Below are positions 2,758 through 34,478 of a stretch of DNA of 35,246 bases, piece by piece. Origin of the DNA: a virus; the IMG/VR virus record IMGVR_UViG_3300048589_001600, positions 1-35,246 of that record. One strand, given 5' to 3'. The position numbers were made by a program, and so were the translations under genes. Position 1 is the first letter of the stretch. Each line of letters opens with the position of its first letter. The notes under the pieces are model-generated. The model was not told the origin of the DNA, did no database searches, and saw only the letters and a list, made by a program, of their open reading frames with translations.

Positions 2758-3474
2758 GTGAACCGTACTATCGCTAAAGGTGTGTTCTATTTCGTGGCTA
2801 CCGTCCTGTTCATCTGGACCAGCAGCCTCACCTATTCGTTCCTCAGTATGGCCCTGCCCAACTCATTCTGGGCCGTGCCCCTGCTCGGCCTGGTCATCTT
2901 CGACGTGGGCATGATCGCCTGGCTCATGGTCTTTCTCGGCCACGCCACGGGCAACATCCAGCGCGCCGTCGCTATCAGCCTGACCATGATCAACTTCGTG
3001 GGCGTCGGCCTGATGGCGATTGCCGACATCCTGCTCGACGGGCAGCAGCTCGTCGAAGCCCCCGCCATGCTGGGCGAGGTCGCCATCTGGGGCATTGGCG
3101 CATGGACAATCATGAACGTGCTGGGCGTGCTGGTGTTTCACCTGGGCGACCCCGCGGCCCGCAAGGAAATGGCGATGCAATCCGAACGCGACGCCGTGTT
3201 TGAGGCAGCGCTAAAGAACCTCAGCCAACAGCGCACCACGATTCAAGAGCAGCTTGCCCGCGAGTTGGGCAGCGCCATGCTCGATGACCTTGTGCGCGAA
3301 GTCCGCGCCGACGCCGATCGCGACGGCACGCCCGACATCCTTCAGCGCGGGCGACAACGCAGCGCCAATGACGCACCGCGTCAAGAAACACCCGCGCCGC
3401 CACGCGAACCGGCGGGGCAGGGGCAGCAGCCCAGCGCCAACGGGCACGGGCGAGGTGACACAAATTTTCGTTAG
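2758..3474 (+). CDS. Four-helix membrane protein with coiled-coil tail
   Basis: This 238-residue protein starts at GTG with an AAGGAG SD about 6 nt upstream. It has four transmembrane segments (residues about 8-28, 38-60, 68-92 and 103-127). A polar helix follows (residues 135-172, EAALKNLSQQRTTIQEQLARELG), and then a disordered Pro/Gln/Arg-rich tail. The stop at 3472-3474 comes two codons after a slippery AAATTTT in the right phase. The -1 frame is open from 3459 to 3872, so a longer fusion of about 371 residues may also be made. Function is unknown; it may be a membrane anchor for a cytoplasmic domain. Confidence 0.65.
   Translation: MNRTIAKGVFYFVATVLFIWTSSLTYSFLSMALPNSFWAVPLLGLVIFDVGMIAWLMVFLGHATGNIQRAVAISLTMINFVGVGLMAIADILLDGQQLVEAPAMLGEVAIWGIGAWTIMNVLGVLVFHLGDPAARKEMAMQSERDAVFEAALKNLSQQRTTIQEQLARELGSAMLDDLVREVRADADRDGTPDILQRGRQRSANDAPRQETPAPPREPAGQGQQPSANGHGRGDTNFR
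3462..3468 (+). other. Candidate -1 ribosomal frameshift site
   Basis: The heptamer AAATTTT is phased as A-AAT-TTT in the membrane-protein frame, which fits the X-XXY-YYZ rule. Two zero-frame codons later comes TAG. A -1 slip enters the downstream frame and reads SLAAEGPPEIREDV before the GTG at 3507. A small GC hairpin (GCGGC, 6-nt loop, GCCGC; 3474-3489) begins 5 nt after the heptamer. Heptamer, phasing and open frame are visible; use in the cell is inference. Confidence 0.45.
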
Positions 3475-3506
3475 CGGCTGAAGGGCCGCCGGAGATACGC
3501 GAGGAT

Positions 3507-3872
3507 GTGCCACCATCGCCGGAACGTGTAGTGGCACCGCCTGAACCTGTAGTGGCATCTGTAGTGGCACAGACGGGGCGCGCGCTGCCGTCTGTAGTGG
3601 CATCTGTAGTGGCACGCGCCACTCATGCCACTACAGACCGTGCCACTACAACCGACCATGCCACTACACGTGCCACTACAGACCGCGCCGGGCTGGTGTG
3701 GCGCATCGAGATCAACCGCCGCAAGCGCGCCGGTGGTGGCTACAGTTACCATTGGCTGTACAGGTTCGGCTCAGGCAAGGACCGCCGCGCCGTCTATGGT
3801 GGCACAGTGGACAGCCTGATCGAACTGAACCCCACACGTTGGGATAGTTATGTAAACAACTCGGAGGAATGA
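3507..3872 (+). CDS. Basic C-terminal domain ORF carrying VVA/ATT repeats
   Basis: If translated alone from the GTG at 3507, this is a 121-residue protein, but no well-spaced SD supports that start. The open frame extends upstream to 3459, and its upstream codons read as plausible protein, so it may instead be the -1 frameshift extension of the preceding membrane gene. Residues 9-60 contain five Val-Val-Ala and four Ala-Thr-Thr units, encoded by exact copies of one 10-bp motif and its reverse complement. Residues 61-121 form a compact basic domain (WRIEINRRKRAGG, YHWLYRFGSGKDRRAVYGGT) that looks beta-rich. No family is assigned. Confidence 0.5.
   Translation: MPPSPERVVAPPEPVVASVVAQTGRALPSVVASVVARATHATTDRATTTDHATTRATTDRAGLVWRIEINRRKRAGGGYSYHWLYRFGSGKDRRAVYGGTVDSLIELNPTRWDSYVNNSEE
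3527..3680 (+). repeat. Nine-copy inverted 10-bp motif array (TGTAGTGGCA)
   Basis: TGTAGTGGCA occurs at 3527, 3548, 3560, 3593 and 3605. Its reverse complement TGCCACTACA occurs at 3626, 3641, 3659 and 3671. All copies are exact. Spacings are 21, 12, 33, 12, 21, 15, 18 and 12 nt, all multiples of three. The two innermost copies, extended by two bases, form a 12-bp inverted repeat with an 11-nt loop. The array lies in a coding frame but looks like a set of binding sites (iterons or operators) or a cruciform-forming element. Confidence 0.85.
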
Positions 3873-4093
3873 TGGCAGCGAAAACGAAACCCGACATGCC
3901 GCCGGAAGTGTGGCTCATGACCGCCACCGATGGGCTGGGGCGCTGGGCCGCCGCCGGTCAGCCCGTGACCGTGGCCGACATCACAGACGATGAGGGGCAG
4001 CCCGCGCTGGTGATTGTGCTGCATGGTATCACCAGCGCCGACCCGCGCGTCAACGAACGGCTGGCCGCGCTTGTGGCAGTGGTGGCCGCATGA
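3872..4093 (+). CDS. Small hypothetical protein
   Basis: This 73-residue soluble acidic protein has no recognised motif. There are two adjacent ATGs, at 3869 and 3872. The SD GGAGG at 3863-3867 is too close to the first, so 3872 is preferred; the gene then begins at the last base of the preceding stop. The C-terminal half (VLHGITSADPRVNERLAALVAVVAA) is helical and hydrophobic, but too short and interrupted for a clear membrane segment. The stop overlaps the next start by ATGA. Confidence 0.55.
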   Translation: MAAKTKPDMPPEVWLMTATDGLGRWAAAGQPVTVADITDDEGQPALVIVLHGITSADPRVNERLAALVAVVAA

Positions 4094-4515
4094 CCCCGCG
4101 CCCCCTCAGCCAAATTCCCAACGGCGAGATCGTCGCCGCGCTGCAGGCCGCCGAAGGCGTGACCTACCGCGCGGCCGAAGCCCTCGGCGTAGACGTTAGC
4201 AACCTGACCAAGCGCATCCGCTACACGCCCATGCTGGCCGCCGAACGCAAGTATCTACAGAGTATCTACGGCCGGTCCACACGCGGCCGCAGGCCCGGCG
4301 CCGAGTTCATCGCCACGCCCGACCAGTGCCCCCGGTGCGGCCTGCGCTATCGATACGGCGCGCAGATAGTGGTAGACGACCGGCCCATGTGCTGCTGGTG
4401 TGCGGCCGAGAGACGCGCCGCAGCAGCCCGCCACACGCGGCAGGATGCTTCAGGCGGGGCGCAGCGCGATTGGTGTTTGTGGACGTTGCTAACGAAGGAG
4501 ACTAACGATGATTGA
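4090..4515 (+). CDS. HTH plus zinc-ribbon DNA-binding protein
   Basis: This 141-residue protein starts with an ATGA overlap. Residues about 10-45 (EIVAALQAAEGVTYRAAEAL, then DVSNLTKRIRYTP) resemble a Fis-type helix-turn-helix. A Cys4 zinc-binding ribbon follows, with CPRCGLRY and CCWC pairs about 20 residues apart (residues about 80-104), inside a basic region. The combination suggests a small nucleic-acid-binding protein, perhaps a regulator of this operon or of host genes. The exact family is not recognised. Confidence 0.6.
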   Translation: MTPRPLSQIPNGEIVAALQAAEGVTYRAAEALGVDVSNLTKRIRYTPMLAAERKYLQSIYGRSTRGRRPGAEFIATPDQCPRCGLRYRYGAQIVVDDRPMCCWCAAERRAAAARHTRQDASGGAQRDWCLWTLLTKETNDD

Positions 4516-32106: not shown

Positions 32107-32125
32107 TAAGCAAGTGGAGGTGCGG

Positions 32126-32368
32126 ATGGGAAAGAACTCAGGCAGCGGGCGCGTCCTTTTGGGCGTTAGGCTGCCGCAAGACCTGATCGACCGGCTCAAA
32201 GCGTCGGCAGAGGTCAACGGCAGAACGATTCAAGCTGAGATGGAGATGGCACTAGAACGCTCACTTGGAGACCAGGATGGCGGCGCCGTTCTATCGGATG
32301 AAGTGGAGCGGGCCATTGAAACCAAAGTCAGGAAGTATCTGGACCGGCTAGCCGCTGGCCGAGGATAG
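32126..32368 (+). CDS. Ribbon-helix-helix (Arc-like) regulator
   Basis: This is an 80-residue protein. ATG 32126 is chosen because GGAGG ends 5 nt upstream; the GTG at 32114 overlaps that SD. It has a beta strand (RVLLGVRLP) followed by two helices (QDLIDRLKASAEVNGRTIQA, EMEMALERSL), the Arc/CopG pattern, and a C-terminal helix. Such proteins bind DNA as dimers and often repress their own promoter. It may control the lysogeny or late switch, as it lies between att/int and the late promoter. Confidence 0.75.
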   Translation: MGKNSGSGRVLLGVRLPQDLIDRLKASAEVNGRTIQAEMEMALERSLGDQDGGAVLSDEVERAIETKVRKYLDRLAAGRG

Positions 32369-33480: not shown

Positions 33481-33558
33481 TTGTGCTCTCTCGCTTCACT
33501 ATTCGGTGCGAACTGGCGTTAGCACCGGCCGCCGTGTTGCAGTCACGGCGACACAAAC

Positions 33559-33587
33559 AGGATAGCAGAACATGCGAGAGATCACAA
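33559..33587 (-). promoter_or_regulatory. Candidate int promoter
   Basis: On the minus strand TTGTGA (33582-33587) and TATCCT (33559-33564) are 17 bp apart, and TGC precedes the -10. Each hexamer matches four of six consensus bases. It would give a 70-80-nt leader before int. The -35 lies inside one copy of the GAGATCACAA motif. Confidence 0.4.
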
Positions 33588-33651
33588 CATCGAAACCGTA
33601 TACCAGCAGCAGCCATCACCGGCGGTCCTCCTCCGCCGCCGTTATGGGTTC

Positions 33652-33713
33652 CCCGCCCGCGCCGACCTCCACCTTCCCATTCCTTCCCACAGGGGGCAAC
33701 GCGCGCGGGCGGG
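33652..33713 (+). terminator. GC-rich inverted repeat in leader of replication gene
   Basis: CCCGCCCGCGC (33652-33662) and GCGCGGGCGGG (33703-33713) form a perfect 11-bp stem with a 40-nt loop, 25 nt before the replication-like gene. It is followed by TCATTTCTG. It could be an attenuator or protein-binding structure; it is not a standard terminator. Confidence 0.35.
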
Positions 33714-33737
33714 TCATTTCTGCATGGGGAGATCACA

Positions 33738-34478
33738 ATGCCTAAGTACCGGAAGCTGCCCGTAACCGTCATAGACAGTCTGGATGTGGCCGAGATGCCC
33801 GATGACTTTACCCGCTTGACGTGGCTCCTCCTACCGCTGGTCGTCTGCCGCGAAGGGCGGGCGTTTGACTTACCGCAGTGGCTCATGTCCAAGCTATACC
33901 CAGCCCGCACCGACGTAGACGCGGATATGGTTGCCGCGGCGCTGGACTGGTTTGCCGGGCGGGACATGATACGCCGGTACACCGTCAACGGGCGCGCCTA
34001 CTTCTACATGACCAACTGGACTAAGCACCAAGGCGACACGCGCAAGGAAGCTGAATCACCTTATCCGGCGCCGGGCGACGCCATTGACTGCGCTAGTCCA
34101 GAGTTAGTCCAGAGTTACTCCGGACCTACTCCGGAGCTAGTCCAGACTAACTCCGCGCCAATGCAAAGCAAAGGCAAAAGCAAAAGCAAAAGCAGTAGCA
34201 ATGCAGTAGCAAGTAGCAACGGCGCAAGCGCCAAAGACGCTGCTGCTGCTGCCTATCTCAGACAGTTCGGCTTGTCTTACAACGCCAAGACCGCGCCGAT
34301 AGCGCGGCTGCCTGAAGACTACATCCGCGGCCACGTGGCCTATGCCCAGCAGCACGGCGACAAGCCCGGCCTGGCGATCACGCGGATGCTAGACGGCGAC
34401 CCCATCCCCGGCCAGCGGGCCAGCCCGGACCTGACGCGCCAAATACCGGCCGAGCTTGCCGACATCATTCAGCGATAG
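33738..34478 (+). CDS. Replication-initiation-like (DnaD/lambda O-type) protein
   Basis: This 246-residue protein starts MPKYRKLPVTVIDSLDVAEM at ATG 33738 with GGGGAG about 6 nt upstream; the longer ORF has no supported start. Residues 1-105 look like the winged-helix N-domain of phage replisome organisers (FTRLTWLLLPLVVCREGRAF, VAAALDWFAGRDMIRRYTVN). A low-complexity linker (residues about 125-175, Gln/Ser/Lys-rich with KGKSKSKSSS) leads to a C-terminal helical part (PEDYIRGHVAYAQQHGDKPG). It likely binds the phage origin and recruits host helicase. The remainder of the replication module is outside the window. Confidence 0.65.
   Translation: MPKYRKLPVTVIDSLDVAEMPDDFTRLTWLLLPLVVCREGRAFDLPQWLMSKLYPARTDVDADMVAAALDWFAGRDMIRRYTVNGRAYFYMTNWTKHQGDTRKEAESPYPAPGDAIDCASPELVQSYSGPTPELVQTNSAPMQSKGKSKSKSSSNAVASSNGASAKDAAAAAYLRQFGLSYNAKTAPIARLPEDYIRGHVAYAQQHGDKPGLAITRMLDGDPIPGQRASPDLTRQIPAELADIIQR

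Follow-up and report, generated by a model that had tools for sequence, protein, structure and literature searches.

An in-gene repeat array at a predicted -1 frameshift gene of a phage: a possible docking site for a membrane-tethered domain that the gene itself encodes

The window analysed here is a phage sequence of 35,246 bases. At 3527-3680 it carries nine exact copies of the 10-mer TGTAGTGGCA, five direct and four inverted, and there is no copy elsewhere in the window; the shuffled expectation was 0.01 copies, and none of 100 shuffles reached nine. All nine copies lie in one codon phase, with inter-copy spacings that are all multiples of three, and the Val-Val-Ala (VVA) and Ala-Thr-Thr (ATT) units that they encode use identical codons throughout. 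These codon triplets were used by none of the nine other VVA and none of the eight other ATT cases in the phage, and the probability of finding them in all of the five VVA and four ATT units, given the phage's own codon usage, is ~10^-22.5. The nine-copy array is beyond chance or codon usage. An initial annotation had described the number, orientation, spacing and fixed codons of the copies, all of which we confirm, and had argued that protein selection alone is insufficient to account for the codon choice, as the above probability bears out. IMG/VR record G001 (43 kb), which is 99.97% identical over the window, has the same array in the same order; because of this conserved order, and because the integrase of the window is 29 kb away, we rejected a shufflon or invertible array. 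Helical phasing of the copies was also considered and dropped, as the direct spacings of 12, 21 and 33 fit one face of the helix but the inverted spacings of 15 and 18 do not.

What the initial annotation missed is that the frame bearing the array is predicted from the sequence to be a -1 extension of the membrane-protein ORF immediately upstream, and not a separate gene (Table 1). The junction has the X_XXY_YYZ slip site and downstream hairpin of known programmed -1 frameshift genes, of which there are phage tail-chaperone examples (PMC3711429). Unlike those genes, the one in the window would yield a product in which a small DNA-binding-like domain is attached to a four-helix membrane protein. 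The stability of the window hairpin is unremarkable (60-nt z of -0.2).

Table 1. Array and predicted gene features in the window
Feature	Position	Strand	Remarks
Membrane-protein ORF (zero frame of the frameshift gene)	2758..3474	+	238 aa, ~4 hydrophobic segments, disordered tail; layout also in relatives
Slippery heptamer A_AAT_TTT	3462..3468	+	in phase, one codon ahead of stop TAG (3472-3474)
Stem-loop GCGGCT-GAAG-GGCCGC	3474..3489	+	5-nt spacer after heptamer; candidate frameshift stimulator, from folding
-1 frame extension	3468..3872	+	array-bearing linker plus C-terminal domain (mechanical ORF GTG 3507-3872)
Motif copy 1, TGTAGTGGCA	3527..3536	+	exact match
Motif copy 2, TGTAGTGGCA	3548..3557	+	exact match
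Motif copy 3, TGTAGTGGCA	3560..3569	+	exact match
Motif copy 4, TGTAGTGGCA	3593..3602	+	exact match
Motif copy 5, TGTAGTGGCA	3605..3614	+	exact match
Motif copy 6, TGTAGTGGCA, inverted	3626..3635	-	exact match
Motif copy 7, TGTAGTGGCA, inverted	3641..3650	-	exact match
Motif copy 8, TGTAGTGGCA, inverted	3659..3668	-	exact match
Motif copy 9, TGTAGTGGCA, inverted	3671..3680	-	exact match
C-terminal domain, WR.E...W..R.GSG..R...YGG	3687..3869	+	predicted three-stranded sheet and two helices; putative motif reader
Small downstream ORF	3872..4093	+	73 aa, start codon overlapping stop of extension; 40% identical counterpart in G002

A profile of the C-terminal domain identified ~20 loci in Chloroflexota phages and genomes, the relatives coming from genomes that we take to be Herpetosiphon-like, from other Chloroflexota genomes and from IMG/VR. 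An initial profile made from only two sequences had given no match in genome contigs, and GenBank phages and PLSDB plasmids yielded no convincing relative. An in-phase X_XXY_YYZ heptamer was present in the ORF overlap at 13 of 13 first-set loci, against 0.56 expected in total. In a second set of seven, gathered by the domain profile alone, it was found by script at six loci and by eye at the seventh, L231, where C_CCA_AAA stands one codon ahead of the stop. The joint probabilities, 1.9e-16 for the first set minus near-identical copies and 5e-8 for the six second-set loci, are rough, since they assume independence and draw the background from the same ORFs. All loci studied have an in-phase heptamer at the junction of the membrane ORF and the domain ORF. 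The 60-nt hairpin z was -2.4 to -5.3 in the 11 first-set loci other than the window and a second phage, G002 (-1.2). Frameshifting at A_AAT_TTT in the window is a strongly supported prediction. At L231 (1312-1749 of the reverse complement of the locus) eight TGACACACA copies and the domain are intact, and the upstream membrane ORF is seemingly broken, with a G-run nearby; this looks like decay or an assembly error.

The motif search in related genomes that the initial annotation had suggested found the same 10-mer in G002 (IMG/VR 2757320697_000003, 32.9 kb), which has seven exact copies, five of them direct and two inverted. G002 shares few proteins with the window phage: an integrase that is distantly related, some proteins of the tail region, the product of the small downstream ORF and the C-terminal part of the motif ORF. 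This last ORF is again in frame -1 relative to the membrane ORF that precedes it, with an in-phase C_CCA_AAC, a stop one codon later and a stem that begins 5 nt past the heptamer. Relatives keeping the peptide repeats with freely varying codons had been named as evidence that would count against a DNA-level constraint; G002, whose terminase is different and whose membrane half is unrelated, retains both the 10-mer and its codons, with different spacings and intervening sequence. G002 sits in a Chloroflexota chromosome (G375, a 5-Mb genome) where the 10-mer occurs in that array alone (7/7 copies). With 1-3 copies expected outside the array, their absence does not amount to significant depletion, and we did not retain that idea. 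The absence does make a host regulator acting at many places in the chromosome unlikely.

Arrays were scored by comparing the commonest 8-mer in 900 bp with shuffles (300 for the first set, 200 for the second). It beat all 300 shuffles at 10 of the 11 first-set loci tested, and all 200 at four of the seven second-set loci. Among the 18 non-duplicate loci (11, plus L217, plus seven, minus one because L192 and L194 are near-identical), 13 have a significant array in or around the domain gene. Arrays were weak or absent at L198, L217, L228, L229 and L230, four of which were viewed as 2-3 kb stretches only; at L198 the density of TGCCA is raised (11.1 vs 3.7 per kb). The motifs are lineage-specific, with a common start of TGCCA, TGACA or TGCCG: TGCCACTACA in the window and G002, TGCCACCA in L196 and L193, TGACACYA in L192 and L194, TGACACACA in L231, TGCCATTAA or TGCCATTA in L197, L199, L201 and L221, TGCCAGCA in L200, TGCCAGTAA in L232 and TGCCGATA in L227. 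The copies in relatives are mostly spread over both strands, occupy more than one codon phase per locus, encode differing peptides and in some cases lie in the next gene; in distant relatives the DNA motif and the peptide change together. Such a spread over strands and codon phases indicates selection on DNA rather than on peptide, and a purely protein-level repeat is ruled out by the different phases and peptides and by the copies in the next gene. That the repeats serve as recognition sites in double-stranded DNA, within a coding linker, is a strongly supported prediction, and to this extent the initial view of iterons, a partition site, an operator array or a cruciform that also encodes a linker holds, although its cruciform and replication-origin variants are not supported (see below).

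Which part of the gene goes with the motif is indicated by three comparisons. Within one genome, L196 and L192 have membrane halves 84% identical, domains 70% identical and different motifs. L196 and L193 have membrane halves only 22% identical, domains 91% identical and the same motif. Likewise, the membrane halves of the window and G002 are unlike (6%) except for similar tails, the domains are 73% identical and the motif is the same. The sequences therefore strongly support motif identity tracking the C-terminal domain rather than the membrane half, although the independent contrasts are few and shared descent of the domain and adjoining linker could yield part of the pairing. In both lineages with a TGACAC motif, the domain has a Y-R/K-P loop between strands 2 and 3, which is present in none of the 11 TGCC-type members (Fisher p 0.013, post hoc). 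A first structure model of the whole motif ORF was poor; the domain modelled as three strands and two helices with a mean pLDDT of 76 (core ~85). Searches with the domain gave no PHROG match, no significant structural match in the PDB or with Foldseek, and in Pfam only non-significant best values of 0.011 (DUF7081) and 0.093 (Arm-DNA-bind_3), for one member each. At L198 (5391-5954), adjoining the frameshift cassette, a GIY-YIG-type (T5orf172/MUG113) nuclease domain is fused to the same C-terminal domain. From the tracking of motif with domain, the TGACAC loop, the predicted fold and this fusion, we infer that the domain is likely to be the reader of the motif. The conserved small downstream protein is a second candidate, and a host protein could also serve.

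We consider there to be about an even chance that the C-terminal domain of the same gene, made by frameshifting and tethered to the membrane, docks on the array and so anchors phage DNA at the membrane. Weighing against this reading are the five loci with no clear array, the lack of a significant match between the domain and any known fold or family, and L231, where the array persists beside a seemingly broken membrane half. Most ribosomes would produce the four-helix membrane protein alone, and the fraction that slips at A_AAT_TTT would add the linker and small C-terminal domain. The domain would then bind the repeats located in its own gene, and the frameshift product would keep the DNA of its own phage at the cell membrane. 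The tether is hypothetical, as is its purpose, which is probably to organize how the phage genome is replicated, controlled in copy number or segregated. We propose it because cassettes lie near replication or ParB-like genes at L199, L200 and L201, and because there are two precedents. In phage phi29, the integral membrane protein p16.7 binds DNA and recruits that of the phage to the membrane (PMC4974454); we use it as an analogy of function only and claim no homology, and the portion of that account drawn on here reports neither a frameshift nor an in-gene site array for p16.7. AlpA of the Corynebacterium prophage CGP3 binds DNA repeats (alpS) beside its own operon, with phage DNA at the membrane (PMC4446434). 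AlpA/alpS resembles the proposed system in being a prophage adaptor with repeats near its own gene and DNA at the membrane, but it acts via an actin-like filament (AlpC) and its repeats are in a promoter region rather than in coding sequence.

The docking reading has to be weighed against a partition site or operator array read by a separate protein: the RHH protein encoded at 32114-32368, an HTH protein (1952-2524 or 4090-4515), the product of the small ORF at 3872, or a host protein. Sites of ~10 bp in both orientations are reminiscent of operator and partition arrays, the PHROG matched by the RHH protein carries a partition annotation, and a ParB-like gene lies near the L199 cassette; no Par NTPase was seen among the profiled neighbours, which comprise part of the phage ORFs. 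However, G002 keeps the motif with no counterpart of the RHH or either HTH protein, which disfavours operators of these proteins, including the two HTH binders that the initial annotation had put forward. In addition, the motif is absent elsewhere in the host genome, and it tracks the domain across loci, although the small downstream protein is shared and stays a candidate. We regard a separate reader as unlikely, while giving it appreciable weight.

An iteron-type replication origin or copy-control site, as in lambda ori within gene O, appears improbable. The likeness is that in lambda the iterons lie in the middle of gene O and encode the linker of the protein presumed to bind them (PMC7466680), as the short repeats in the window encode a linker of their candidate reader; replication genes are also near the cassettes of some relatives. 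In lambda-type origins, though, the repeats are in the initiator gene, whereas the initiator-like gene of the window (33483-34478) is not the array gene and has its own repeats, five 11-bp tandem units of the CTAGTCCAGAG / TTACTCCGGAC type at 34082-34155, likely themselves a lambda-O-like origin. The G002 initiator gene similarly has 21-bp repeats (L158:1955-2074), L200 has a separate GTTACAGA array at 2635-2820, and the domain has no initiator similarity. These separate repeats in the initiator genes disfavour a lambda-type origin, one of the roles first suggested for the array. The array further differs from that of lambda O in that its product would be a frameshift-made membrane protein and its sites are on both strands with irregular spacing.

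An RNA-level element, in which hairpins of direct and inverted copies steer frameshifting or translation, would be consistent with the array region folding better than shuffles (z of -5.8 and -4.9) and with L196, where motif-like copies make up the hairpin after the slip site. Against this, three direct copies in G002 are unpaired, L192 and L194 have direct copies only, some outside the gene, and the window array starts 58 nt past a slip site that has its own hairpin. RNA structure is possible in part, but it leaves the all-direct and extra-genic copies unexplained, and as the main function it seems to us very improbable. Unpaired or all-direct copies in relatives likewise speak against the cruciform. 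That the array is a peptide repeat, or arose by neutral tandem duplication within a low-complexity linker, is barely credible even though duplication often expands linkers and the nine window copies share one phase, given the reverse-complement copies with exact codons, the other spacings of the 10-mer in G002 and the different peptides that one motif encodes in different phases in relatives.

Returning to the docking reading, we tentatively suggest, at somewhat less than even probability, that these loci represent an undescribed class of phage and mobile-element protein that combines a membrane anchor, a -1 frameshift, a new DNA-reading domain and lineage-specific in-gene arrays, such that each element would tether its own DNA but not the DNA of its relatives, even where they share a cell. 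The literature searched contained nothing similar, and in particular no frameshift gene whose two parts are a four-helix membrane protein and a small DNA-binding-like domain. The combination has, so far as tested, no known counterpart, although its parts have analogues, and its novelty depends on the function proposed. If correct, one short gene would supply a membrane anchor, a DNA-binding tip whose dose is tunable by frameshifting, and its own DNA address. The family would also offer a natural series of diverged domain-site pairs for decoding new DNA recognition, and a testable answer to how Chloroflexota phages position their DNA within the cell. Should there be no tether, a family-wide frameshift overlooked by ORF callers, with overlapping site arrays, would still be noteworthy.

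Several other repeats were met in the course of the analysis. Paired copies of the 10-mer in public genomes belonged to REP-like repeats, Synergistales repeats or repetitive coding sequence and were judged coincidental, and 21 of 23 viral pattern matches were protein repeats or isolated pairs. TGTAGTGGCAAATGTAGTGGCA occurs with varying flanks in two Synergistales genomes (L037 and many other loci), and is probably a dispersed repeat or operator of their own, unrelated to the window array. In Desantisbacteria (L045, L046, L125 and others) there is a REP-like TGTAGTGGCAGAGTTTACTCTGC with a GTAG head and hairpin, and similar units are present in Poribacteria, Verrucomicrobia and others. The window array itself was rejected as a REP element linked to a RAYT transposase, there being one cluster per genome and a unit without a hairpin. 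A long GGGCCGCCGCAT tandem repeat at 338-580 of the window encodes an Ala/Gly/Trp repeat in ORF 1-606. Finally, a Herpetosiphon-like locus (L191:6273-7214, minus strand) encodes, near the cassette, a membrane protein with no Pfam match and a winged-helix-like soluble C-terminal part.
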